Virus record (IMG/VR): IMGVR_UViG_3300022752_000220
Span: 1-33,902 of that record
DNA length: 33,902 nucleotides
From: a virus
Reading direction: 5' to 3' (one strand)
Part shown: positions 4,638 to 33,848 of the stretch, in pieces
How the letters are laid out: the number at the start of each line of letters is the position of its first letter
Numbering within the stretch: the first letter of the stretch is position 1
Notes under the pieces: model-generated
Seen by the model: the letters and a program-made list of their open reading frames with translations, nothing else
What the model was told of the DNA's origin: nothing
The model's database searches: none
Made by a program: the position numbers and the translations under genes

Positions 4638-4807
4638 AGCCCGCCCTCCGTTCGCAGTCGCTCCAGGATCAGCACGTTCTCCCGCTCCTCGGCGGCCTTA
4701 AGGGCTTCCCGGGTCTCGGCCAGCTGCCGCTCCAGCGATCGGATCCGCTCAACCAGCTGGCGGCTTAACGGCTCGGCTGGCAGGACGACGTAGTTGGCGT
4801 CGTTCAT
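4634..4807 (-). CDS. Small coiled-coil protein (57 aa)
   Basis: Hand translation from the ATG at 4807 gives 57 aa, starting MNDANYVVLP and ending RTEGGL. Residues about 14-53 form a strongly heptad-patterned helix rich in Glu, Arg and Leu, so a short dimeric coiled coil is likely. It overlaps the upstream nuclease gene (ATGA at 4804-4807) and the downstream methyltransferase (GTGA at 4634-4637), placing it in one coupled early operon. No function can be assigned. Confidence 0.6.
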   Translation of the reverse strand: MNDANYVVLPAEPLSRQLVERIRSLERQLAETREALKAAEERENVLILERLRTEGGL

Positions 4808-5616
4808 TTGCCCGCCCTCGGGTCATACTTCTTCACCTTCCGCCACAGCGTGCAGCAGGCCCGGAACGCCTCGAAGGCGTCCTCGACCTCCTCGGCCGTG
4901 TAGAGTTTTTCGTCGATAGCCCCGGTCTTGCGGTCAATAAAGACGTTCCGCGCAGGCAACGCCTCGCCCGCCCAGGCAAACGAATAGGCGGCAAGCTGCA
5001 GGAGCTCCTTGTAGTCCGTCCATACCTTGTGCTCCTCATCGGCCATGGCAAAGCCGGGCATCTCCGGGTGAAACGGCGCGACCTTGGTAAAGTTTTTGCT
5101 CTTGAAATCGACGACCTCCGTCTGCCCGTCGATCTTGGCGATCAGATCGCACCGGCCCGCGTAGCCCTCCCCGTCATGCACGACCACCTCCTCGGACAGG
5201 ACAACCTCGTCCAGGAAGCGTGACCAACGGGTCAGGCTGGCAAGGTGGGGCCGGAGCGTGTCGTCCATGTCCTTGGCCAGCGGGGCCTCGCCCCGGATCA
5301 CCTGCTCGGCCAGCTCGTGGATCCGCGTACCCACGTCAGCCATGCCGGCCAGCTCGGCCCTGTTGGTTTCATGGACCCGTCGGGCGTATTCCTGCAGCTC
5401 CTCGCCGTCCCTGCGGGGCAGCGTCAGCGTCTGGGCAATGGCCGCGTCCACCTTGTGGCGGGTCAGCGCCTCGCTTTCCATGATCTTGAGGATTGTCGTG
5501 ACGCTGGGCAGCGCCCCGGCCTTGCGGGCCTGGCGCAGATCCCCGTGGCACGGCTCACCGGTCGGCAGGTAGTAGTGCGCCGACTCGGTGTCGTATTTGA
5601 CGACGAGGTTGGCCAC
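4804..5616 (-). CDS. PD-(D/E)XK nuclease (RecB/Cas4-like phage exonuclease)
   Basis: A 270-aa protein from a GTG start. Residues 151-174 carry the nuclease signature: GYAGRCD with Asp157, then a beta strand EVVDFKSK with Asp170 and Lys172, followed by a Gln/Tyr-containing helix (LLQLAAYSFAW), typical of the RecB/lambda-exonuclease fold. It probably processes phage DNA ends during recombination or replication, consistent with the ssDNA-binding-like gene just upstream. It overlaps the following small gene by 4 nt. The start has no convincing ribosome-binding site, so an internal start is possible, though the N-terminal text looks coding. Confidence 0.82.
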   Translation of the reverse strand: MANLVVKYDTESAHYYLPTGEPCHGDLRQARKAGALPSVTTILKIMESEALTRHKVDAAIAQTLTLPRRDGEELQEYARRVHETNRAELAGMADVGTRIHELAEQVIRGEAPLAKDMDDTLRPHLASLTRWSRFLDEVVLSEEVVVHDGEGYAGRCDLIAKIDGQTEVVDFKSKNFTKVAPFHPEMPGFAMADEEHKVWTDYKELLQLAAYSFAWAGEALPARNVFIDRKTGAIDEKLYTAEEVEDAFEAFRACCTLWRKVKKYDPRAGK

Positions 5617-5620
5617 GGTC

Positions 5621-5713
5621 TTAGGCTTTCCAACTGCGGATCACCGGCACGGCCATGGCAACCACGGCCACGACAAACACGGGGATCGCAATACGGATGA
5701 TGGTCTCGGTCAT
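5621..5713 (-). CDS. Single-span membrane peptide (30 aa)
   Basis: Hand translation from the ATG at 5713 gives MTETIIRIAI, a Val/Ala-rich stretch of about 20 residues and a basic end RSWKA. This is a typical one-pass inner-membrane micropeptide. A good ribosome-binding site (AAAGGA) lies about 7 nt upstream. It sits 4 nt before the nuclease start. Phage micropeptides of this kind may act on host membrane proteins, but nothing here says which. Confidence 0.5.
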   Translation of the reverse strand: MTETIIRIAIPVFVVAVVAMAVPVIRSWKA

Positions 5714-5730
5714 TTTTTTCCTTTCCGGAA

Positions 5731-5772
5731 GCCGGCGGCCGCCCACGCGGCAGCCGCCGGCCCCCTTTTTTT
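5731..5772 (+). terminator. GC-rich hairpin followed by T run (plus-strand orientation)
   Basis: Stem GCCGGCGGC at 5731-5739 pairs perfectly with GCCGCCGGC at 5753-5761 (9 bp, 13-nt loop), followed by CCCC and TTTTTTT at 5766-5772. It has the form of a rho-independent terminator for plus-strand transcription, opposite to the surrounding genes. On the minus strand it is a hairpin in the leader of the 30-aa membrane peptide. Confidence 0.55.
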
Positions 5773-5788
5773 ATTTCTCAGCCAAGGG

Positions 5789-6301
5789 TTAAAACGGGAC
5801 GTTGTCCTCGGCGGTGACTGCGACCGCTTTTGCGGCCACGGCAAGGGCGGGTTTGGGTTCGCGGTCCTTAAAGCGGACAAAGTCCGGGTCCACCTTAAGC
5901 TTCGCCTTGCCCGGCTTCAGCACGCTCTGGACGTTGGCGTACACCTGGCCGTCCCGCTCGTTGTGGGTAACGACGATCTGGCAGTTTTGGCCGATCAGCT
6001 TTTCCAGGTCGAAGTTGTCCGGGGCCGGCTTGCCAAACCACGACTTAAGATCTTTGGCCAAGCTGCTCTTTTCATGGAGCGTCAGGCCATAGCGGCGTCC
6101 GATGGAGAACGGCCGGCCGTCTTCCATTTTTGAGGACAGCTGCCAGACGATCCGCACCTTGTGCTGGGATTTGGTTTCGCCCTGCCAGGTGGTCTCGACG
6201 ATCCCGAGGTCGGCCACGTCGCAGCAGACTGCGTCGTGCACGCCTTCCGGGGCGGGGGTGTAGGTTCCGTTGGTGTTGGGTTTGCTTGCTATGATTGCCA
6301 T
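5789..6301 (-). CDS. ssDNA-binding-like phage protein with SSB-type acidic tip
   Basis: A 170-aa protein. The N-terminal 130 residues look like an OB-type beta-rich domain (VRIVWQL, NCQIVVTHN, VYANVQSVL). A flexible Ala/Lys linker follows, and the last residues are AEDNVPF, resembling the DDIPF tip by which bacterial SSBs recruit partners. Phage proteins of this general form are annotated as DUF669-like or SSB-like. It probably coats single-stranded phage DNA for the neighbouring nucleases and helicase. A strong ribosome-binding site (AAAGGAG) precedes the ATG. The OB fold and binding role are inferred; the tip is plainly visible. Confidence 0.68.
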   Translation of the reverse strand: MAIIASKPNTNGTYTPAPEGVHDAVCCDVADLGIVETTWQGETKSQHKVRIVWQLSSKMEDGRPFSIGRRYGLTLHEKSSLAKDLKSWFGKPAPDNFDLEKLIGQNCQIVVTHNERDGQVYANVQSVLKPGKAKLKVDPDFVRFKDREPKPALAVAAKAVAVTAEDNVPF

Positions 6302-6343
6302 GTCTTTTTCTCCTTTGGGGTTTTCTCTTTTTTTCAGCGGCGA

Positions 6344-6559
6344 CTACTCGTCGTCGCAGAAATCGTTGTTTGTGTGCGGATAACGGGCCGTGATGCGCTC
6401 CACCTCCGGGCGGATCCATCCGATGTCGTGGGCCCGGGCCAGCTCCTTGGCCCTCTCCTCGTTGTGCTCGTTAATCGCCACGATCGCCCTTTCGGCGCTG
6501 ACCCTGCGGGCCCGCTCCTCGGCCAGCTCCATGTGCAAAGAAACAGGTGTGATCGTCAT
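6344..6559 (-). CDS. Hypothetical helical protein (71 aa)
   Basis: Starting at the ATG at 6559 (overlapping the upstream endonuclease stop, ATGA) gives 71 aa beginning MTITPVSLHM, with a long Glu/Arg/Ala-rich helix and an acidic end NNDFCDDE. A longer version from 6589 would run further into the endonuclease gene and is less likely. No family is recognised. It lies between two DNA-metabolism genes. Confidence 0.55.
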   Translation of the reverse strand: MTITPVSLHMELAEERARRVSAERAIVAINEHNEERAKELARAHDIGWIRPEVERITARYPHTNNDFCDDE

Positions 6560-6882
6560 GCCCGCTCCTTGATCCGGCTCCAGAACCACTCGACGGCCTG
6601 CCGGATGTTTTCAATCGTCAGGCACTTGGTCGTGAAATGGATCACGTTCCACCCGGAGTAAGCCGCCAGCCTGCCCTTCTCTGCATCCCGCACCTGCCCC
6701 ATCCCGCCGCTGTGCCGGCCACGGACAAAGACGCCTCCGTCCAGCTCGATGGCGGCCTTGGCGGAGTGGTGGGCGTAATCAAACCGGAACCGCCTCCCCG
6801 GGAAAAACGTCACCTCCTTGGTCAGCGCCGGCCCCTTGTGCAGAGCCCACAACCGCTCAAACTGACCGGCCAAGCGGCTCAT
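6556..6882 (-). CDS. Small endonuclease of the DUF559/Vsr-like PD-(D/E)XK group
   Basis: A 108-aa protein with the pattern of small phage endonucleases. A strand RFRFDYA carries Asp near residue 34, then AAIELDGG with Glu near 46. Next comes the loop RGRHSGGMGQVRDAEKGRLAAYSGW and a final strand NVIHFT, as in Vsr and DUF559 nucleases. It may nick or resolve branched phage DNA during replication or recombination. Its start and stop both overlap neighbours by 4 nt. Family-level assignment is good; substrate is unknown. Confidence 0.75.
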   Translation of the reverse strand: MSRLAGQFERLWALHKGPALTKEVTFFPGRRFRFDYAHHSAKAAIELDGGVFVRGRHSGGMGQVRDAEKGRLAAYSGWNVIHFTTKCLTIENIRQAVEWFWSRIKERA

Positions 6883-7127
6883 TGCTCAACGCCTCCGGTC
6901 TTCCACTCGCCCCTGATTTCCAGCGGCTGCCGGTCAATCGTCTCCAGGCAGCGCACCTTGGCGGCGATCCCTGCCAGCACCTCGTTCTGCCTTTCAATGT
7001 CCTGCGACAGCTTTTTGACCTTGAACTGCAGGTCGATGATCGAGGAAAGGGTGGAAAACTCTCCGGCCCCAAGGCTCTTGGAGTTGGCCGGCAACACACC
7101 CTCGGCTTCCAGATCCCGGACGCTCAC
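6879..7127 (-). CDS. Hypothetical coiled-coil protein (82 aa)
   Basis: I choose the GTG at 7127, which overlaps the stop of the upstream membrane gene by 4 nt (GTGA), over the longer frame from 7223 that would cover that gene. The 82-aa product starts VSVRDLEAEG and has a helical segment LQFKVKKLSQDIERQNEVL likely to form a coiled coil. It ends EWKTGGVEQ. No family is recognised. Confidence 0.55.
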   Translation of the reverse strand: MSVRDLEAEGVLPANSKSLGAGEFSTLSSIIDLQFKVKKLSQDIERQNEVLAGIAAKVRCLETIDRQPLEIRGEWKTGGVEQ

Positions 7128-7276
7128 TGGGCGGCCTCGTCTTTGGCCTTCTTGACCAGCCAGGCGGCAAAGCTGACGGCAAAAACCAGCAGGCCCCACC
7201 CCGCTCCGACGATCAGGGCCCACCCGGTCAGGACGGCCACCATCTTGGCGAGGTCCACAACAACGTCCCAGGTCAT
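7124..7276 (-). CDS. Small membrane protein (50 aa)
   Basis: Hand translation from the ATG at 7276 gives 50 aa: a short amphipathic start MTWDVVVDLA, a long hydrophobic stretch (residues about 12-40, Trp/Gly/Val-rich, one or two spans), and a charged end KKAKDEAAQ. It is the first gene of the leftward early operon after the attachment region, so its promoter probably lies in 7277-7430. Function is unknown. Confidence 0.55.
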   Translation of the reverse strand: MTWDVVVDLAKMVAVLTGWALIVGAGWGLLVFAVSFAAWLVKKAKDEAAQ

Positions 7277-7420
7277 CGGGACCCCCAAATCCACGCGGTC
7301 TTTTCCCGCGCTAGCCCCGCAATGAGAAGCTGCACCTCGCGGGCCTTTTCGGCCTCGCTGAGGCTTTCCTGTGTTACGTTCTTGCTACGTTCCGTCCGTA
7401 ACTCTCTGTCATTTAACGAC
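7277..7420. other. Non-coding flank between attP core and early operon; integrase arm-site candidates
   Basis: A minus-strand frame is open here and ends at 7273, overlapping the membrane gene, but it has no credible start outside the tRNA-derived sequence, so I do not call it. The stretch contains GTTACG at 7373-7378, GCTACG at 7384-7389 and the inverted copy CGTAAC at 7397-7402, candidate integrase arm sites. No clear promoter can be picked by eye. Confidence 0.45.
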
Positions 7421-7445
7421 CGGACGGGGTGGGATTCGAACCCAC
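7421..7445 (-). other. attP: attP core: tRNA 3'-end fragment (T arm and acceptor strand)
   Basis: On the minus strand this reads as a T stem GTGGG, loop TTCGAAT, stem CCCAC, then an acceptor strand CCCGTCC and discriminator G, with no encoded CCA. The upstream sequence does not form an anticodon stem, so only the tRNA 3' end is present. That is the usual identity block carried by a phage integrating into a tRNA gene. The tRNA identity is uncertain; G73 would fit a serine tRNA, but that is weak. It lies 92 bp before the integrase start and has phage genes on both sides. Confidence 0.8.
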
Positions 7446-7522
7446 GGCAATTAAGGATTTCAGTTTTTTGGTGTTTTATTGTGTAGGAGTTCACTTATTT
7501 TCCTTCTGTTTTTGGGTAATTT

Positions 7523-7537
7523 GCTACGCTTGTTACG
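7523..7537 (+). promoter_or_regulatory. Candidate integrase arm-binding repeats on the int side
   Basis: GCTACG (7523-7528) and GTTACG (7532-7537) lie just before the integrase start. They match the pair at 7373-7389 on the other side of the core. The two-sided layout is what tyrosine-integrase arm sites look like. The motif is short, so this is suggestive only. Confidence 0.4.
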
Positions 7538-8682
7538 TGGCTTCTCTTTACAAAAGAAAAGACTCTCCATGGTTCTGGATTCGCTACAAAACCAAGGATG
7601 GCCGCTGGGCGTCCAAGGCGACGCGATACCGGATCGACAACACGCTCCACCGGGCAAAGGCCAGGCAGGAGGCCGCGGAGATTTCCATCGGGGAGCAGGA
7701 CAGGCGCAGCACCGATCTGAGCTGGGTCGACGACCTGATCGCCACGCACCCTGTCAGCGGAAACACAAGAATCTACTACCGCAACAGCTGGCGAAACCTG
7801 TTGCGCTTCATGGCCGAGAGGCACATTCACCTTGAGGACTTTGCCCCTGCCACGGCCCACGACTACATCGCGTGGAGAACGGCCAACCCCAGAACCAACG
7901 GAGGATTTGTCACGCGGAACCAAGCCCTGCAGGACATAAAGATCCTGAAATGGATCCACCGCAATGGTCGGCTGCTTGGCCACATGACCAGCATGGCCAT
8001 GGTGGATTTTCGATCCCGCAAAAGTCCCGTCCAGCGACGGCCGGTCTTTACCGAGCAAGATATTGCCCGATGCCGGGAAGCGCTGGCCAGCCGTCATGTC
8101 CCCGACTGGATGCGAACCAGCTTTGAGATTGCCTACCATACCGGATGCCGGCTTAAGGAAACCCGCCTTCCCCTTTCCTGCATTGATCTTGAGGCGGAGA
8201 CCATGACTTTTCCGGAGCCCAAGGGAGGTTCCGGCCGGGCGTATACCATCCCGATCCCGGAAGGGTTGCTTGCCCTGTTCCGCAAACTTAAGGCTACGCC
8301 CCGCTCTCACACCCTGGAATGGCCGGGGGCAGGCACCCGCGTCTCCTGCTATTGGCGACGCTTTTTTAATCTGCTGGGGTTGCGAAGGCATAGCTTTCAT
8401 GGTCTTCGGGCTACCCGAGTGACGAACCTGCGAAGGGCAGGGATTGTGCAAGCAGTTGCCATGCGACTCGTGAACCACTCCTCGACCCTGGTGCACGACC
8501 TTTACCAGCGTCACTCTGTGGAGGATTTGAGGAACTACGTAAACGCGGGCCTTCCGTCATCCACGCCTCAAACGCCCGAGGGAATATCAGGCCGCGCACC
8601 ATGGGAAAGCCGGCCTCAAACGACAAGGATCGCGCCCGGTGGTACGTTATGCCGTACGCCTCCGCCAATTGCCTCAGATTAA
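7537..8682 (+). CDS. int: Tyrosine-family site-specific integrase
   Basis: A 381-aa integrase with an N-terminal arm/core-binding region (residues 1-about 165) and a catalytic domain. The catalytic residues are Arg205 in GCRLKETRL, a probable Lys229 in PEPKGG, His288 and Arg291 in HGLRATR, His314 in VNHSS and nucleophile Tyr323 in DLYQR. It recombines attP with a tRNA-located attB. I start at the GTG at 7537. The longer open frame from 7429 only reads through the tRNA fragment, giving the typical artefactual GFEPT text. No good ribosome-binding site is seen. The last 40 residues lie antisense to the excisionase-like gene. It is one of the few plus-strand genes. Confidence 0.93.
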   Translation: MASLYKRKDSPWFWIRYKTKDGRWASKATRYRIDNTLHRAKARQEAAEISIGEQDRRSTDLSWVDDLIATHPVSGNTRIYYRNSWRNLLRFMAERHIHLEDFAPATAHDYIAWRTANPRTNGGFVTRNQALQDIKILKWIHRNGRLLGHMTSMAMVDFRSRKSPVQRRPVFTEQDIARCREALASRHVPDWMRTSFEIAYHTGCRLKETRLPLSCIDLEAETMTFPEPKGGSGRAYTIPIPEGLLALFRKLKATPRSHTLEWPGAGTRVSCYWRRFFNLLGLRRHSFHGLRATRVTNLRRAGIVQAVAMRLVNHSSTLVHDLYQRHSVEDLRNYVNAGLPSSTPQTPEGISGRAPWESRPQTTRIAPGGTLCRTPPPIASD

Positions 8683-8776: not shown

Positions 8777-8935
8777 CTATCTTGCTTCCTCAATTTCGAG
8801 TTGGTGGCGCTCGATAAGTTCAGTGACAAGCTGAGACAATGAAAGCCGGCGGTCCTCCGCCATCTGAATCCCAGCCCTTTTTACTTCTACCGGAAGGTAC
8901 AGGTTGGTTTGTTCGCTCTTGCCTCGGGGTGCCAT
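8777..8935 (-). CDS. Ribbon-helix-helix regulator (52 aa)
   Basis: Hand translation from the ATG at 8935 gives 52 aa. A basic start (APRGKSEQ) leads into the beta strand TNLYLPVEV, helix KRAGIQMAEDR, turn LSLS and helix QLVTELIERH, a complete Arc/CopG-type ribbon-helix-helix fold. Such proteins bind DNA as dimers in tandem. It is the first gene of a leftward pair with the excisionase-like gene and is divergent from a second ribbon-helix-helix gene at 9044, so it probably regulates the shared intergenic region. Confidence 0.75.
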   Translation of the reverse strand: MAPRGKSEQTNLYLPVEVKRAGIQMAEDRRLSLSQLVTELIERHQLEIEEAR

Positions 8936-9043
8936 GTGCGCAAGCTGTGCGCCATATTTATGCCGTCAACAAAAATTTTATTTTTTTATAGATTTTCTTT
9001 TAGGCGACTTGTTACGCGCCTTATTTCAGCGCAATCTTTACAC
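8936..9043. promoter_or_regulatory. AT-rich divergent promoter/operator region between two RHH genes
   Basis: A gene-free 108-bp stretch between divergent starts with a strongly AT-rich core (about 8960-9000). On the plus strand TATAGA near 8988 could serve as a -10 element. On the minus strand TTGACG near 8970 could serve as a -35. Neither has a clear partner at proper spacing, so promoters are likely here but not resolved. Confidence 0.45.
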
Positions 9044-9253
9044 ATGAGGAAGGAGCGGACCAACGTCTACCTGCCAAGCAAGGTCAAAAAAAAGGCCATG
9101 GCGCTGGCCAGTGCCGCAGGTATGTCGCTTTCCGTTTATATAACCCAGTTGCTGATTCGTGAGGCGGCCCGACTGGCGGGTTTTACCAAGGAGAGCCCTG
9201 CTCTATTTGCGGGCGGGCGTGTAAGGGTAAAAACTAGGATAAAAGGCACATAA
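9044..9253 (+). CDS. Ribbon-helix-helix regulator (69 aa), divergent partner
   Basis: Starting at the ATG at 9044 gives 69 aa: RKERTNVYLPSKV (beta strand), KKKAMALASAAG (helix 1), MSLSVYITQLLIREAARL (turn and helix 2), then a basic tail. This is again the Arc/CopG ribbon-helix-helix fold, clearly related to the divergent minus-strand gene (shared TN-YLP and SLS positions). AGGAAGGAG lies inside the first codons, so translation may begin near a leaderless start. The open frame extends upstream to 8909, but that part lies in the AT-rich divergent region and looks non-coding. A lysogeny-switch role is inferred from position. Confidence 0.72.
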   Translation: MRKERTNVYLPSKVKKKAMALASAAGMSLSVYITQLLIREAARLAGFTKESPALFAGGRVRVKTRIKGT

Positions 9254-22771: not shown

Positions 22772-23401
22772 CTATGAAGTTGTGTCATCCCACACCGGAC
22801 GGATGCTTTGATCGAAAGACACAATCTGTTTAAGGCCAGCACCTCCATGTGGGTACGTTGGCTTGTAGCAGTAACGCCTGACGCATGAAGGCCAGCCAAT
22901 CATCCCGCGGCCACGCTGTGACTTTGTTGTGTCCACGCTCCTGTCGTTGTCCTCAATAATAAAAGTGCATGGCAGGTTTTTCCCGTCCACATAGTTAACT
23001 GCCTCGTAAAAATGCCCCTCGTCCTCAGCCCCATCGCCCAAAAAACACCAGACCTTCCGCGGGTTGCCAGCCTCCGCCAGCGTTTGCGCCACTCCGGCGG
23101 CAATCCCGCAGGTGCCGGCCAGCACGCTGGAACTGTAAAAGTTCCTGCTCAGGTCAAAAACAAACATGCTGCGCCCATCCCGGATCATCTGCTCTAATGC
23201 GTCCGGATCCCCGCCATGAAGCAGGTAGTGGTAGTGGGACCGGTGGGTGGAAAAAACCCAGTCCTGCGGATGGATTTCCTTAAAAATCTCAATCAGCTGG
23301 GTTTCGTTCCCGCCGCACAGGTGGATGAGATAAGGCAGCTTTCCCTCAGCAAACAGCCGGCGGATCCGCAGCTCAAAGTTAATGAGGTCGTGCGCGGTCA
23401 T
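22772..23401 (-). CDS. TPP-dependent E1-alpha-like subunit (pyruvate/acetoin dehydrogenase family, short)
   Basis: A 209-aa protein with the thiamine-diphosphate PP-domain signature: GDGAEDEGHF at 122-131, about 28 residues, then EDND with Asn152, matching the GDG-x(25-30)-N pattern that binds diphosphate and magnesium. Upstream blocks THRSHYHYLLHGG and SSSVLAGTCGIAAGVA also match E1-alpha. Full-length E1-alpha is about 320-360 aa, so this is a minimal version. It would pair with the PYR-domain gene at 24489-25019. It is in an operon with a radical SAM gene and overlaps it by 4 nt. Confidence 0.85.
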   Translation of the reverse strand: MTAHDLINFELRIRRLFAEGKLPYLIHLCGGNETQLIEIFKEIHPQDWVFSTHRSHYHYLLHGGDPDALEQMIRDGRSMFVFDLSRNFYSSSVLAGTCGIAAGVAQTLAEAGNPRKVWCFLGDGAEDEGHFYEAVNYVDGKNLPCTFIIEDNDRSVDTTKSQRGRGMIGWPSCVRRYCYKPTYPHGGAGLKQIVSFDQSIRPVWDDTTS

Positions 23402-24489
23402 ACAAAGGCGTCATGGCTGTCGGATGCCAGGCTTTCAAAGAGCGCCACCTTGTTGTGATTGGCGCACTCATGCAGGCAGGCCACGCCGGGATTGAATTTG
23501 GCGTGCCATTCCCGAGCTTCCGTGCTGAACCATGCCTGTCGGAAAGACTGGTCCCGGAACGAGGCGATGCGACCGTGCGCGCTGTAGGCGGTATTGTGAC
23601 AGGCGTAAATATTTAGATCGGCCGCTGCGACGCAGACGGTCTGGGCGTAGAGACAGCGGTGGAATGGCCGGACAAGGCTTTTGCCGGGGCTGTCCAGATC
23701 GTAGGTGCTGTTGACGGAGAAAGTGTCGTCGACCAGCGCCTGACACTCGGACAACTGCTCGCGGACGCGCACAGCGATGTCCTTGTGGTAATCCCTGAAT
23801 CCCTGCACATAGACGGGTGAGAAGCGGACATTTTCCACACCGCAATCCTTGAGCGTCCTGGCAAACGAAGTGATGCCCTCGTAGTTGTAGCGGGTGACGA
23901 TGAAATTGACCCCCAGGTCGCACGTGGCGGTCTTGGCGGCAGCAAACTGCCGCATGTTTTTCAGCACGGCATCAAAGCTGGCCGTCGGAACGGAACGGCT
24001 CTGGTGCATCTGCTCGGCGCTGGTATAGTCGATTGAAACGCGGACCCACTTGGCCTGGGTGAGAATTTCCGCACGCTCTCCGGTCAGGAGCTGGCCGTTG
24101 GTGATGATGGAAAGATCAATCCTAGAGGACAGGGTGGACGTCATGGCTTGGCTTATGGCGGGGTGAAACAGCGGCTCCCCTCCCCCGGAAAACGTGACGG
24201 CCTGCACGTTCATTTCGCGCAGGTCGTTCATCAGCTCCATTAGCTTCCACGTGGGCATGACGTCCTGCTCCCTCATCTCCGTGTGCATGGCCGACTGCAG
24301 ATGGAGATCCGGCCGGTCCTTGGGCCGGGTGGTACCGTCGGAATAAGTGCAGAATCGGCAGGCGTGGTTGCAACGGTTGGTTGGCTTGATGCGGACGTAC
24401 ACCGGAGCCGTCAGCGTGCTGGTTCGGAAGCTCTCCACCTTGTCGGGGAAGCTGAAGATTTTGTAATCGCTGTACTTGTTCTGCCGCAT
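23398..24489 (-). CDS. Radical SAM enzyme with SPASM-like C-terminal cysteines
   Basis: A 363-aa protein from the ATG at 24489 (TGATG overlap with the PYR-domain gene). The SAM-binding iron-sulphur motif CNHACRFC gives Cys40, Cys44 and Cys47 (CxxxCxxC). FSGGGEPLFHP is the usual GGE motif. The C-terminus has CLYAQTVCVAAADLNIYAC and CLHEC, spaced like SPASM/Twitch auxiliary clusters. Such enzymes modify peptides, sugars or nucleotides by a 5'-deoxyadenosyl radical. Encoding in a structural operon between two halves of a TPP enzyme is unusual. Substrate is unknown. Confidence 0.88.
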   Translation of the reverse strand: MRQNKYSDYKIFSFPDKVESFRTSTLTAPVYVRIKPTNRCNHACRFCTYSDGTTRPKDRPDLHLQSAMHTEMREQDVMPTWKLMELMNDLREMNVQAVTFSGGGEPLFHPAISQAMTSTLSSRIDLSIITNGQLLTGERAEILTQAKWVRVSIDYTSAEQMHQSRSVPTASFDAVLKNMRQFAAAKTATCDLGVNFIVTRYNYEGITSFARTLKDCGVENVRFSPVYVQGFRDYHKDIAVRVREQLSECQALVDDTFSVNSTYDLDSPGKSLVRPFHRCLYAQTVCVAAADLNIYACHNTAYSAHGRIASFRDQSFRQAWFSTEAREWHAKFNPGVACLHECANHNKVALFESLASDSHDAFV

Positions 24490-25019
24490 CAGATCAGGTC
24501 CTTGTGCTCGACGAGCATAGTGCTGCGGCCGCAATGCAGGGCCTCGTGCGCCTCAAAATAGGCGGGCGCAATCTGCTCATGCCCGGTCAGTCGCACCACT
24601 GAAAAATCCACCATTTTCCGGATGGCCTCGGTGAAGTCCTGCACGTGGGTGGGGCCGGTGTAGAGGGGCTTATGCCGGTTGCCGACGACAACGCGCAGGA
24701 TGGCGGCTGGCTGGAACTGCCCGCGGCTAATTTTCCTGGCCGCGCCCAAATGGTTCACAATGGCGTCCAGCGCGTTCAGGATAAAATCCATCCGCTCGAT
24801 AAAAACGAGCGGCCGCAGGCGGGCCAGCGACATGCCTGTGGCCAGGCCGACCATGAGGTTTTCCGCCACCGGGGTCTCGACCAGCTGGTGATCCGGCACG
24901 TTTTTCAGCGTGCCCAAGGCCCGGCCGCCAATCTTCACGCCGTAGCCGATGAAGCGTACGGCCTTGTCGGCGGCCAGATTGTCCATGGCCAGGGTGAGCT
25001 GTTCCCTGTACGCGCTCAC
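24489..25019 (-). CDS. Transketolase PYR-domain/E1-beta-like subunit (short)
   Basis: A 176-aa protein from a GTG start. ETPVAENLMVGLATGMSLARLRPLVFIERMDF is the E1-beta/transketolase pyrimidine-binding domain pattern, including the Glu (in ETPVAE) that normally activates the thiamine aminopyrimidine. DFILNALDAIVNHLGAARK also fits. It ends before the usual C-terminal transketolase domain, so only the PYR half is kept. With the PP-domain gene at 22772-23401 it could form a complete alpha2beta2 TPP enzyme. Confidence 0.8.
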   Translation of the reverse strand: MSAYREQLTLAMDNLAADKAVRFIGYGVKIGGRALGTLKNVPDHQLVETPVAENLMVGLATGMSLARLRPLVFIERMDFILNALDAIVNHLGAARKISRGQFQPAAILRVVVGNRHKPLYTGPTHVQDFTEAIRKMVDFSVVRLTGHEQIAPAYFEAHEALHCGRSTMLVEHKDLI

Positions 25020-25780
25020 AGCCAGCCATCCTTGGTTAGGAGGTGGATGGCGTGGTGGACGCTGCGGGCCATCCGGCTGGCGGGCGTGAGGAGCACCTGC
25101 TCGTGATCGGCGCAGAGGATGATGGGCTTGGCCCGGTTGTGGACGTTTAGGCAGGGCCAGCTGGGGCCGGTGCTGGTGCCCACGATAACCTTGGCCTTGA
25201 CCGATGCCGCGCCGATGAAAGTTACGTTCCTGTTTTCAAAATGCGGACAGAGGCCGGTGGGCGCTGTGCTGTGGACGCGGTGGCCCTTGAGCACCAGCCG
25301 GGCGATGAGGTCGCGGAAGTCGTCGGGGTTATAGTTCAGAAACTGGCCAGACAGGCCGGGCGAGTTGATGACAAGCACATCGCACTCGGGAGTCATAGGA
25401 ATGAAAGAGTCCAGCGTGGGGTAATTCAGTAGGAGGTCGTCCACGGTGCGAATGGGGTTGGGAATACCCAAGCGGCCGGCCAGCTCATCAAACCAAGCCA
25501 TGTGAAACTTGCCAAAGTCCAGCCGGTCCGGGTGGCGCTCCCACCAGCCGCCGGCGTTGCGCCAACTGTCAATGCTGCCGGCGGGCGCCTCCTCAATTGG
25601 ACGGATCCGCAGGCGGGTAAAGATGTCGGACCGCAGGGCGTCGATCTCCTCAAACCGGCAAAGCTGCGGATTGTGGTAGTGAGTGACCTCCAAAGATGGG
25701 TCAGCCAAGCAAGCACGGCGCAGAAAGTTTAACTGAACCAGGTTGTCGCCCAGCCGAAGGGCGTTGTGCGTATGGATCAT
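25016..25780 (-). CDS. Glycosyltransferase family 9/heptosyltransferase-like protein
   Basis: A 254-aa protein. The start IHTHNALRLGDNLVQLNFLRR resembles the GLGDxL start of GT-B heptosyltransferases. VINSPGLSGQFLNY, FIGAASVKAKVIVGTSTGPSW (the GxxTxxxxxA-like acceptor loop) and KPIILCADHE support a GT9 fold. It could transfer a sugar from a nucleotide donor. It shares one base with the gene upstream and four with the one downstream. Shorter than typical heptosyltransferases (about 320-350 aa); GT-B assignment is moderate. Confidence 0.65.
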   Translation of the reverse strand: MIHTHNALRLGDNLVQLNFLRRACLADPSLEVTHYHNPQLCRFEEIDALRSDIFTRLRIRPIEEAPAGSIDSWRNAGGWWERHPDRLDFGKFHMAWFDELAGRLGIPNPIRTVDDLLLNYPTLDSFIPMTPECDVLVINSPGLSGQFLNYNPDDFRDLIARLVLKGHRVHSTAPTGLCPHFENRNVTFIGAASVKAKVIVGTSTGPSWPCLNVHNRAKPIILCADHEQVLLTPASRMARSVHHAIHLLTKDGWL

Positions 25781-27471
25781 CAGGCTCCAGGGTTACGCGC
25801 CTCAAAAATCTTTTTTCCCGTCTCGTAATTGGTGGTGGAGTTGTGCCGTAAAAACTCCTCGTCCGCCTTCTGCCCGGTAAACATTGGGTTGTTATGGGTA
25901 AAGACAACGTCGCGAGCCTCGATGACGCACTTGTCCGCATAGGCTCTAAAAGTAAACTCGTTATCGGAATAGATGCCGCTTGATGCGTCGTAATCAGGCG
26001 CAAACAGGTAGCCCTGTTTTTTCAGTCGGTTGCGCGTTAAAATCGCCATGCACAGTAACTGGTCCTTGCGGTGTCCGTCGCTGACGGCCAGCACGCTTTC
26101 CCGCGTGGTGTCGCCCATGCGTTCCAAGAGGATCCGGTCCCACCACAGCGGAGGATCCCAGTCGTCGGATCCCTGCACAATAATCTCTCCCCTGGCCTTT
26201 TCGGCCGCGCGGTTCCAAGCGGCGATGCAGCCGCCCTCGCCTTTGATGGGTGCCCACGCCTTAAGGACATCGGCCTTGGGATCGTCATTGTCGCAGCTGA
26301 AAATCCACTCCACGCTGGCTGGATCAGCCGCTTTTTTCATCCAAAGGATGCGGGCGTTGATAGCCTCCTGTGGACGTCCGCGGGTGGCGTGGCAGATGGA
26401 GATGCGGATAGGCTTCAGCTTCCGCCATTGACTCTCAATCTTGTCGGCCTCGGCGTTGTCGCCCACGGCGCGGGCGGCGGCAATGTAGAGGTCGATGCAT
26501 TCAAAATCATAAATCGCCCGCTGGGCGTTCCACTGGCTAACGCCTGGATCCGGCAGAACCATGGCGCTCTTAAGCAGGTAATAAGCTGAGCCCCAGCGGC
26601 CGGCGCTGGCCTCCTCCCTCGCCATATAAAAAACGGCCTCGCGGCGTGACGGGCTGGATTGATGGGCCTTGGCAAAAATGGCCATGCGCTGGTCGCGGTC
26701 GGGCAACGCTTGGCCGTAGTTGCACCAAGATTCGTAGCGGAGAGTCGGCTCCTGGGTGGGCCAAAGGGCGGAGACGTGGGACCATGTGGCGGACTGGCTG
26801 CGCTTACCTGAAAGAAAAAGCTCTTGTTGCAGGTAGTAGGCGTATTTGCCGGCCTCGGCCAGTTCCCCCTCCAGGATGCGTATGTTGCGATCCGCAGATC
26901 CGGCCTTGTAGCCATCCGGATGGTGCTCGACCCAGCTGGCTTGCTCGGCCCGCACTTCGTATCCCGGCAATGGCAAAAGCGCCTCGTGAACGGCGTAGTG
27001 CCAGCGGCCGGCCCAGCTGCCGTTCGGCAGGCGCTTCACAAGGCGCTCACGCATTGGCGTCAGCTTGGCGTTGGTTACGTTATAGACAGCTGCCCAGATG
27101 CCGACCTTGTCGTTTTTTAAAAGCTCGCTGGCGGCCCTTTTAAGCGCGTTTTTGAGGCCGCTGGCAGGCAGATCATCCGCATCCACCCACATGGCCACGT
27201 CACCAGTGCACGCATACATGGCTGTATTGCGGGCGTTCCCAAAATGATCCACGTGAGGCCAATCTGATCGTATGGGTTGGTTTTGATAATGGACAATGGT
27301 GGCGCCCTTTTCTTTGGCGATTTCCTCGGTGCCATCGTCGGGAACTCCGCCGCGGGCGATGCAGACGACCAGCTCGTCGCACATGGGTTTAAAAGCGTCC
27401 AGGCAGCGGCCGATGTATTTGGCTTCCCGGCCGGCAATCAGATAGATGGAAATTTTAGGATCTCGTGACAT
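25780..27471 (-). CDS. Two-domain GT-A (family 2-like) glycosyltransferase
   Basis: A 563-aa protein with two GT-A-like modules. The N-terminal one starts ISIYLIAGREAKYIGRCLDAF and has the metal motif VDADD at 96-100. The C-terminal one starts ISICHATRGRP near 357 and contains FSCDNDDP near 391 and GSDDWDP near 434. A helical, partly TPR-like linker joins them. Such tandem glycosyltransferases make polysaccharide or glycoprotein glycans. It is the first gene of the five-gene island and lies immediately after the head-tail joining gene. Acceptor and donor are unknown. Confidence 0.78.
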   Translation of the reverse strand: MSRDPKISIYLIAGREAKYIGRCLDAFKPMCDELVVCIARGGVPDDGTEEIAKEKGATIVHYQNQPIRSDWPHVDHFGNARNTAMYACTGDVAMWVDADDLPASGLKNALKRAASELLKNDKVGIWAAVYNVTNAKLTPMRERLVKRLPNGSWAGRWHYAVHEALLPLPGYEVRAEQASWVEHHPDGYKAGSADRNIRILEGELAEAGKYAYYLQQELFLSGKRSQSATWSHVSALWPTQEPTLRYESWCNYGQALPDRDQRMAIFAKAHQSSPSRREAVFYMAREEASAGRWGSAYYLLKSAMVLPDPGVSQWNAQRAIYDFECIDLYIAAARAVGDNAEADKIESQWRKLKPIRISICHATRGRPQEAINARILWMKKAADPASVEWIFSCDNDDPKADVLKAWAPIKGEGGCIAAWNRAAEKARGEIIVQGSDDWDPPLWWDRILLERMGDTTRESVLAVSDGHRKDQLLCMAILTRNRLKKQGYLFAPDYDASSGIYSDNEFTFRAYADKCVIEARDVVFTHNNPMFTGQKADEEFLRHNSTTNYETGKKIFEARNPGA

Positions 27472-31341: not shown

Positions 31342-31627
31342 AGATGTTGGTGAATGAGCCGGTGGTTCTGGAGACGCGGTTGCCTTGCAGGAAATCAATG
31401 GCGGCCTGAAACAGGGTGACGCGCTCCGTTGGCTTCATGTCGATTGCAAAGCTTGCGGATTGCCCTCCTGCAGAACTTCCAACCACAGATCGTCCGGAAT
31501 CGACTCCCGACATCGCGGAATCTCGCATGGATTCAAGGGCAACAATGGCCGAGGCCGTGACCCCAGAGGCTTGCTTTAGCTCATTTAGGGCAACAGCCCG
31601 CGCTAGTTCGCGGGTATATGCGGCCAT
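31331..31627 (-). CDS. Small head-tail connector in lambda gpW position (98 aa)
   Basis: Starting at the ATG at 31627 (TGATG overlap with terminase) gives 98 aa beginning MAAYTRELARAVALNEL. It is Ser/Ala-rich with a helical end LFQAAIDFLQGNRVSR. It lies exactly between terminase and portal as lambda gpW does. The longer frame from 31756 covers terminase and is rejected. Homology to gpW is positional, not shown by motif. Confidence 0.6.
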   Translation of the reverse strand: MAAYTRELARAVALNELKQASGVTASAIVALESMRDSAMSGVDSGRSVVGSSAGGQSASFAIDMKPTERVTLFQAAIDFLQGNRVSRTTGSFTNIYDA

Positions 31628-33372
31628 CAGGAACCATCTTGTGTCAACGGATCTTCCGCATGCGTTGGGGTAATGATCTTTCCATACACCGCCCAACCGG
31701 CCAGGTAAGTCTCGCAGTCGTAAAGGTGGTCCTGTCTCTGTTTTATCCGCACCCATTCGTACAGATCGCGACCAGTTTTGCGGTTTATCCTATGAACTTT
31801 TTTATGGCTGTTCATGTGCTCCCGGTATTGCGGACTGACGTCGTGGGCAATTTCCCACAGCGGCCCCTGCCCGCGCCGCAGCCAGGCCAGCAGATCCTGG
31901 CACCCCGGAGAACTTAACAAAATTAGCATACAGCCGGCATCCGTGGCCTGCGGAGAGCTATGCACCGACTTCATCCGGCCCCGGGGCGTTTCAATTAGGT
32001 AGCTGGCCCTTTCCTCGCCCTTGATGGCGGTCCATTTGTAGCGTGCACAGATCCGGTAGGAGTCCTGCGTCTCATAACCCGAGTCCATGCAGACATGCTC
32101 TGGCCTGACCCCATGTTGATCGAGATGATGGGCCACGTCTTCGATTGTTCTGGCATGTCCCTCGTCCCAAAGACGGCTAGTCCCATCTTTTGCAAAAGCA
32201 CGGATTGCAAACCAGTAGCCGTCAATCTGACGATCAATCGCCGCCAGTTTGAGGTGCGGCACCGTCCAGTCCTGCCGCTTGGCAAAGGCCCCCGCCGGTA
32301 TTTCGACGCTGGCGTCGTCGTCAAACTGGTCGTCCCAAGGCTGGGCGGCCCACCCGTTAACCCATCCCTGCAATCCGTGCAGGTAGTGTTTCTCTGTCAG
32401 GAATTTTTTGCATACATCAGCAAACGTGACGGTCGGACTGTACCAGCTGGGCAGCCGCATGGATCGCCGACCTGTCTCGGCATTTGCGTTGGATGCCACC
32501 CACCGGCCCTGTTCCACGGCCTTGCGGCGGTGATTTTCGGTCCATGTGGCCTGGCATTTTTCGCACTCGTAGCGGGCAGACTCGGCCACCCTTTTGATGT
32601 CCCACTTGCCGTCGGGCAAGCGAGCGTCCTGATCCCAGCGCATCTGAGAAAACTCCATGGCCTGCATGTGTCCGCAAGAGTGGCACGGCACATGGTAAAG
32701 CTCTTGCGTCCCAGCCAGATAGTTCTGCCAAATGTCCCCGGTAGCCACGGTCGGGGTGCTGGTTAGGACGTGCTTCCGCTGTGGGAAAGATTTAGTCCGC
32801 TCTAAAGCCAGGCTGTAAGCGCTGGCGTTTTTGTCGTCGGCTGGCGCAAAGGAATCCAATTCGTCCAAAACGGCGCAGCAAATCGGGCGCGAGCTAAGGT
32901 TGCTGGGTGAGTTACTGCCGACCAGACTCAAGTTCATAGTCAAAAATTGCATTTCAAGGTTTTTGTAGTCGTCGCTGTCCCGCGGAAACACTGCCCGGAC
33001 GGGCTTACACTTTTCAAAAATCGGGGTTAGCCGGGTCTCGCTGTAGCTCCGGGCCAAGTCGGCGTTGGGCATGACGAGCAGGGCTGGGGCTGGATCGTTT
33101 GCAATTCGATAAGCAAGCCAAACCGCTAAGGTCAAGGTCTTCCCGGTTTGGCTTCCCCAGCACAGGGTCACGGTATGAACGCCCGGATCCGCAAGGGCCT
33201 CGAGCACCCCGCGCACGTAAGGCGTGTAGGTGGTAGCGTAAAGACCTGGACGTGCGGTAAGGCGGCCATCCAAATAAATGTTTTTCTCGGCCCACTCGAT
33301 GACGCTGGGCGGCTTTTCGTAGTGCCACCGCGCCCGAGCCATCCGGCGCAGCTCCTGCTGGGCCTTGGTCAC
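31627..33372 (-). CDS. Terminase large subunit (lambda gpA/GpA family)
   Basis: A 581-aa protein from the GTG at 33372. The packaging ATPase has Walker A GSQTGKT at 73-79 and Walker B CCAVLDELD at 165-173. FLTMNLSLVGSNSPSNLSSRPI, just before the Walker B, is also a GpA-family landmark. The C-terminal half holds a CxxC...CxxC pair (HSCGHM, ECEKCQATW) and the nuclease region. It cuts and pumps phage DNA into procapsids. It overlaps small terminase by 4 nt (GTGA). Confidence 0.92.
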   Translation of the reverse strand: MTKAQQELRRMARARWHYEKPPSVIEWAEKNIYLDGRLTARPGLYATTYTPYVRGVLEALADPGVHTVTLCWGSQTGKTLTLAVWLAYRIANDPAPALLVMPNADLARSYSETRLTPIFEKCKPVRAVFPRDSDDYKNLEMQFLTMNLSLVGSNSPSNLSSRPICCAVLDELDSFAPADDKNASAYSLALERTKSFPQRKHVLTSTPTVATGDIWQNYLAGTQELYHVPCHSCGHMQAMEFSQMRWDQDARLPDGKWDIKRVAESARYECEKCQATWTENHRRKAVEQGRWVASNANAETGRRSMRLPSWYSPTVTFADVCKKFLTEKHYLHGLQGWVNGWAAQPWDDQFDDDASVEIPAGAFAKRQDWTVPHLKLAAIDRQIDGYWFAIRAFAKDGTSRLWDEGHARTIEDVAHHLDQHGVRPEHVCMDSGYETQDSYRICARYKWTAIKGEERASYLIETPRGRMKSVHSSPQATDAGCMLILLSSPGCQDLLAWLRRGQGPLWEIAHDVSPQYREHMNSHKKVHRINRKTGRDLYEWVRIKQRQDHLYDCETYLAGWAVYGKIITPTHAEDPLTQDGS

Positions 33373-33848
33373 AGCGCGGCCTCGACCTGCCGCATCACTT
33401 GCCCAACCTCCGCCTCAATCTCAGCCTCGACCTCTAGTGGCGGCCGGTTTCCGCAGATAGGCGCCAGCCGCTTGGCCATACCTTTTAGCAGTGGGATTAG
33501 GGCGTTGTCCCGGGCTGCCAGGATTTTGTTGGCCTCGTCCACTGGCACCATAGTGCCCTCCGCTTGGTCAATCTCGGGGCGGTCTCCCTTCATGCGCCGA
33601 AGCGCCTCAACCACTTTGGTGTAGTTGGTAATTAGCTCTGATCTGTCGTCACGGGTGCCGTCTTTAGCGCTTTCCCCAAGACTGGCGGCCAGGTCTTCAA
33701 GTCTTTTGATTTCAGCGTCCAGACCACCGCCTTGTGCTTGGGCAAACGGCTTGGCCTGGGCTCGGCCGCGCTTGCGATAGACGGTGCGGCGAGAGGCGCC
33801 AGTGACGGCCATCGCCCTCTCCACATCGTGGTTTTTAGGTCTGCCCAT
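33369..33848 (-). CDS. Terminase small subunit (DNA-binding)
   Basis: A 159-aa protein. The N-terminal helix-turn-helix VERAMAVTGASRRTVYRKRGRA recognises packaging DNA, followed by helical oligomerisation segments (DRSELITNYTKVVEALRRM) and an acidic C-terminal helix that could contact the large subunit. It is the first gene of the morphogenesis operon in transcription order; the promoter is expected at the right edge. Confidence 0.75.
   Translation of the reverse strand: MGRPKNHDVERAMAVTGASRRTVYRKRGRAQAKPFAQAQGGGLDAEIKRLEDLAASLGESAKDGTRDDRSELITNYTKVVEALRRMKGDRPEIDQAEGTMVPVDEANKILAARDNALIPLLKGMAKRLAPICGNRPPLEVEAEIEAEVGQVMRQVEAAL

Follow-up and report, generated by a model that had tools for sequence, protein, structure and literature searches.

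In the lambda Int and mycobacteriophage Brujita Int systems, pairs of arm sites lie on both sides of the core, and the proteins consist of N-terminal arm-binding-like, core-binding, and catalytic domains. The T-arm tDNA islands and prophages of the Islander class have an intact tDNA at one end and a displaced 3′ fragment at the other (PMC4383910). The integrase IntS of KplE1 represses its own gene, and such control has been predicted for integrases with a promoter overlapping att (PMC2951348). We describe a locus that combines features of these systems in an IMG/VR virus record (33,902 bp; this whole stretch of DNA is referred to as the window). The region is very probably the attP of a temperate Verrucomicrobiota phage. 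It is a well-supported attP of a known type; what is new is the host group and the regularity of the design. We found neither this phage group nor its att site described in the literature, and the integrase had no match in 50,697 phage records, a lineage absent from sequenced phages.

The core of the site (7421–7447, minus strand) is the 3′ end of a tRNA-Ser gene. Read on the minus strand from 7447 to 7421, it is CCGTGGGTTCGAATCCCACCCCGTCCG, made up of the T arm, the acceptor 3′ strand, and the discriminator G; in window coordinates the discriminator is at 7421, the acceptor 3′ strand at 7422–7428, and the T arm (GTGGGATTCGAACCCAC) at 7429–7445, with two further bases beyond it. A first-pass annotation, made from the letters alone, had recognized this tRNA end, and the positions it gave for the T arm and for the acceptor (7421–7428, which takes in the discriminator) agree with ours. 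ARAGORN found no complete tRNA in the window and Rfam no match; the core is therefore a 3′ fragment only. In bacterial genomes the identical 27-mer forms the end of complete tRNA-Ser genes.

Two pairs of direct repeats on the plus strand flank the core. The left pair (7373–7389) consists of GTTACG at 7373–7378 and GCTACG at 7384–7389, spaced 11 nt apart as originally noted; the right pair (7523–7537) consists of GCTACG at 7523–7528 and GTTACG at 7532–7537, with a spacing of 9 nt, unlike the 11 nt on the left. The last right hexamer shares one base with the GTG start of a tyrosine integrase gene (7537–8682, plus strand; 381 amino acids). In lambda-type attPs, by contrast, the core is not a tRNA-Ser 3′ end, the integrase gene ends towards the site rather than starting at it, and the arms are not two direct-repeat pairs with 11- and 9-nt spacing. 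To the left of the arms, a consensus scan marks a possible, unproven terminator-like hairpin (7347–7363, plus strand); the same scan gives three such hairpins in 500 bp against 0.8 expected.

The motif GYTACG is not rare, with 26 copies in the window versus 17.7 expected, and a chance match of hexamers near a tRNA-like fragment could be argued on that ground. All five hexamers of the first-pass annotation are where it placed them, the fifth being CGTAAC at 7397 (GTTACG on the minus strand), and five copies within 165 bp have a probability of about 4e-8 at one place and at most 0.0013 counting every start position. Together with this clustering, the strict spacing and motif co-variation over many loci, and integrated homologs that use the same parts, make coincidence exceedingly improbable. 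Comparison across relatives is the decisive evidence for the arm pairs, outweighing the local clustering of hexamers.

The 27-mer was found in 91 stretches of viral contigs, and about 80 of these share one arrangement, in which the left repeats are followed by the core and then the integrase gene; their integrases are 42–100% identical to that of the window. The integrase start lies 84–98 bp to the right of the core in the 66 contigs in which the gene is readable through. Across 54 distinct attPs, a lag of 11 is the only enriched direct-repeat spacing to the left of the core (25 sites match at 6 or more of 7 positions, versus 0–2 at other lags), and beside the integrase gene a lag of 9 is the strongest (12 sites at 6 or more of 7; four at lag 23 and 0–1 at other lags); in 15 representatives that between them use three tRNA targets, best 7-mer matches average 6.27 on the left at lag 11 and 5.40 on the right at lag 9, versus 2.7–4.4 at other lags; related rows are not independent, so all of these lag and match figures are descriptions and not p-values. 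The motif itself varies while the spacing stays constant (GYTACG, TGTTACC, TACTGCACT or ACTTGCACT, TTGGTACG, and TGTGGGAG), and left and right motifs agree at 7.6 of 8 positions within a phage versus 6.4 between phages. In relatives, some 48 bp separate the left lag-11 pair from the core, and the distance from core to right pair is 74 bp in tRNA-Ser attPs and 76–78 bp in most tRNA-Gly attPs. Some relatives (the L011/L073 clade and L062) have an imperfect left pair. Conserved arm-type repeats with fixed spacing are thus present on both sides of the core.

The inverted hexamer at 7397 fared differently. It had been proposed as a further arm site, a proposal we reject because the sequence is not conserved: L005–L007 have CTTAAG and the other clade mostly CGTAAG. 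It falls in a conserved block between the core and the left arms (7399–7411, minus strand). At the corresponding place, the IHF consensus WATCAANNNNTTR is present with at most one mismatch in 10 of 11 tRNA-Gly relatives (0.46 expected); in lambda an IHF site likewise sits between arms and core. The window's own copy of the block is degenerate, with three mismatches to the consensus, too weak for us to claim an IHF site here.

The integrase matches PF00589 (E = 9e-9) and phrog_1 (E = 4e-27), and its GTG start was assigned by conservation of the sequence MASLYKRK. The catalytic residues (R, K, HxxR, H, and Y) are intact and conserved across the family, so that a complete set adjoins the site. 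A sequence search of the PDB gave no match. An AlphaFold2 model (mean pLDDT 75.8) has an N-terminal domain of three strands and a helix (strands 2–6, 12–18, and 24–32; helix 36–50), followed by core-binding and catalytic domains, and in a fold search the best matches among solved structures were Brujita Int and lambda Int. By analogy with those two families, the N-terminal domain is predicted to bind the arm sites. It would hold both direct-repeat pairs (7373/7384 and 7523/7532) while the core-binding and catalytic domains contact the 27-bp core, and a bending protein between the core and the left arms probably assists.

The position of the right arms bears on the regulation of the integrase gene. 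The pair takes up 15 bp just upstream of the coding region, reaching into the start codon (7523–7537), and it adjoins the start codon in nearly all relatives although the motif differs. The first-pass annotation had put the integrase start inside the right-hand arm region and raised the idea of self-repression; the geometry is as it described. In KplE1 IntS and other self-regulated, tRNA-associated integrases, the gene start and presumed promoter overlap the att region together with its arm sites in the same way, and for integrases arranged like this self-repression is known or has been predicted (PMC2951348). The present locus differs from that set in that the tRNA fragment and the integrase gene point apart, their rarer OD orientation, and in that the prophage integrase is not beside an intact tRNA. 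Since the right pair abuts the start codon, bound integrase would probably shut off the gene, and we lean slightly towards autorepression. A genuine attP whose integrase gene escapes such control, with a promoter outside the arms and an overlap at the start codon that is a by-product of compactness, has somewhat less than an even chance: a promoter scan found no sigma-70-like promoter in 7200–7700, hence no shown overlap of promoter and arms, while the persistence of the right pair at the start codon through changes of motif and the precedent of the IntS group argue for repression.

Several observations point to a host. A scan of GTDB found the integrase family almost only in Verrucomicrobiota-labelled records, and the metagenome-assembled genome (MAG) Verrucomicrobia UBA3063 includes one contig that is 97.65% identical to window positions 5255–8616 and is in the attP form. 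A bacterial tRNA sharing this 3′ end, for which the first-pass annotation had called for a search, does exist: among 62 genomes of the order of UBA3063, more than a dozen have complete tRNA-Ser(CGA) genes that end in the exact 27-mer, and tRNA-Ser(TGA) with the same end occurs in other records. The likely host therefore belongs to this Verrucomicrobiota order, an assignment that rests on MAG binning.

In UBA3063 itself, tRNA-Ser(CGA) lies at the very end of a contig (C95) whose sequence breaks off in the T arm, a part of the core common to phage and tRNA gene. An assembler ends a contig in this way where the paths into attB and into phage DNA branch; the position of the break fits such a branch but falls short of proof. 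A single mismatch, inside the T loop, separates the phage core (C at 7437) from the UBA3063 gene (T). With the phage base, tRNA position 57 remains a purine, so the restored tRNA gene should be normal. Should the 7-base T loop be the overlap region, either this mismatch calls for an explanation or the true host is a sibling strain.

During integration, the core would recombine with the matching 3′ end, identical or nearly so, of the host tRNA-Ser gene (CGA in the likely host order), and the phage copy of that end would restore the tRNA. The left arms would then lie just downstream of the intact tRNA, with the right arms and the integrase gene at the far end beside the displaced fragment. More distant relatives are found in this arrangement. 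Their integrases, 35–39% identical to that of the window, adjoin the 3′ end of tRNA-Gly. On one contig (G066:C72), host DNA, core, TTACTGCACTAACTGCACTCG, and integrase follow in that order at 49752, and at 75327 TTTACTGCACTTTTACTGCACTC precedes a core that runs into a complete tRNA-Gly(CCC); this element of 25.6 kb carries the left arms at one end and the right arms at the other. A second tRNA-Gly element, of 11 kb, lies on G065:C20 (18285/29351). Because the arms are divided between the ends of both elements, the halves of attP separate on integration as the model requires. As in the Islander class, an intact tDNA is at one end and a displaced 3′ fragment at the other, and here the integrase gene is at the displaced-fragment end, not next to the intact tRNA.

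The expectation of prophages bounded by the same tRNA end was therefore borne out in part, for relatives at the 3′ end of tRNA-Gly(CCC) with attL and attR halves, and not for the window's own integrase subfamily at tRNA-Ser: 384 genomes of the class, when searched, yielded more tRNA-Gly cases and no tRNA-Ser prophage of that subfamily. This result, and the fact that the close relatives are all free contigs with joined arms, would suit a remnant, in which the phage has lost its temperate lifestyle or relies on a different site, with the tRNA fragment left over from earlier integration. We regard a remnant as quite improbable, given an intact integrase with conserved catalytic residues and arms and spacings that are clearly constrained; moreover, IMG/VR trims host flanks, and most of the genomes examined are MAGs, which lose prophages. 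A functional attP remains our preferred explanation.

Other elements use the same or related targets. Flanks resembling attL at tRNA-Ser(CGA) in G043, G060, and G062 were considered as prophages of the window's family and rejected, as G043:C87 carries a different integrase. That gene (L173, 237–1325) immediately follows the same tRNA-Ser(CGA) in this other Verrucomicrobiota genome, and within L173 (1–1325) a direct pair with 11-nt spacing, CGTGACAG, stands beside the tRNA gene; tRNA-Ser(CGA) is an integration site common to different elements. On G068:C84 (L109), three tRNA-Gly 3′ ends, one of them complete, lie within 6 kb (8051, 12094, and 13842), and one end has both arm pairs and an integrase gene with an internal stop; the cluster suggests small elements in tandem or insertions that have decayed.

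In distant members of the integrase family (L217/L221, L219/L222, L116, and L117), the core is the 5′ half of tRNA-Gln(CTG). The ends of two such elements, of 30 and 44 kb, are at 4741 and 34897 of G077:C20 (L217/L221) and at 243630 and 287961 of G073:C3 (L219/L222); the complete tRNA is at the opposite end from the 5′ half, immediately preceded by the left arms. These elements integrate at the 5′ end of the tRNA, parting the gene from its old promoter. Integration at this end is rare but known: 159 of 3919 Islander islands carry a 5′ fragment (PMC4383910).

Phage genes lie on both sides of the attP (portal, terminase, head protein, exonuclease, and methyltransferases). Homologs of genes at the right end of the window (33369–33848, large terminase, and portal) are contiguous in G082, G084, and G085 with homologs of the left end, from 815–1285 onward to the integrase. 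The ends of the window are thus joined in relatives, so the map is circular and the attP internal, as the first-pass annotation had supposed in reading the contig as a circular or packaged form; by gene order, the window is a single permutation of a genome that is circular or permuted. The large terminase is 75–77% identical to that of phages whose integrase is 52–57% identical, but only 34% identical to that of phages whose integrase is 75–86% identical; these conflicting values indicate that the integration module moves between phages. The integration module (7373–8682) and the packaging module (31627–33372) differ in history. Beyond the integrase gene are two short divergent ORFs (8777–8935, minus strand; 9044–9253, plus strand) that look ribbon-helix-helix-like by eye and have no Pfam match; a further GTTACG lies between them at 9011. 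The structural half of the phage contains glycosyltransferase and radical-SAM genes (25780–27471 and 23398–24534).

It seems fairly probable that this little-studied integrase family of Verrucomicrobiota elements has kept a rigid intasome blueprint while the arm motif changed several times and the tRNA target also changed: an arm pair spaced by 11 nt, about 40–50 bp, the tRNA core, 74–82 bp, an arm pair spaced by about 9 nt, and the integrase start, with the target moving away from the 3′ end of tRNA-Ser to that of tRNA-Gly and to the 5′ end of tRNA-Gln. The family would then provide a natural data set for the arm-recognition code. The likely host order, the target gene, and a mechanism of lysogeny can now be assigned to a phage group represented only in metagenomes; through their co-varying arm motifs, the roughly 80 related attPs could reveal how arm-binding domains choose their DNA, and the same set could show how integrases switch between tRNA targets.
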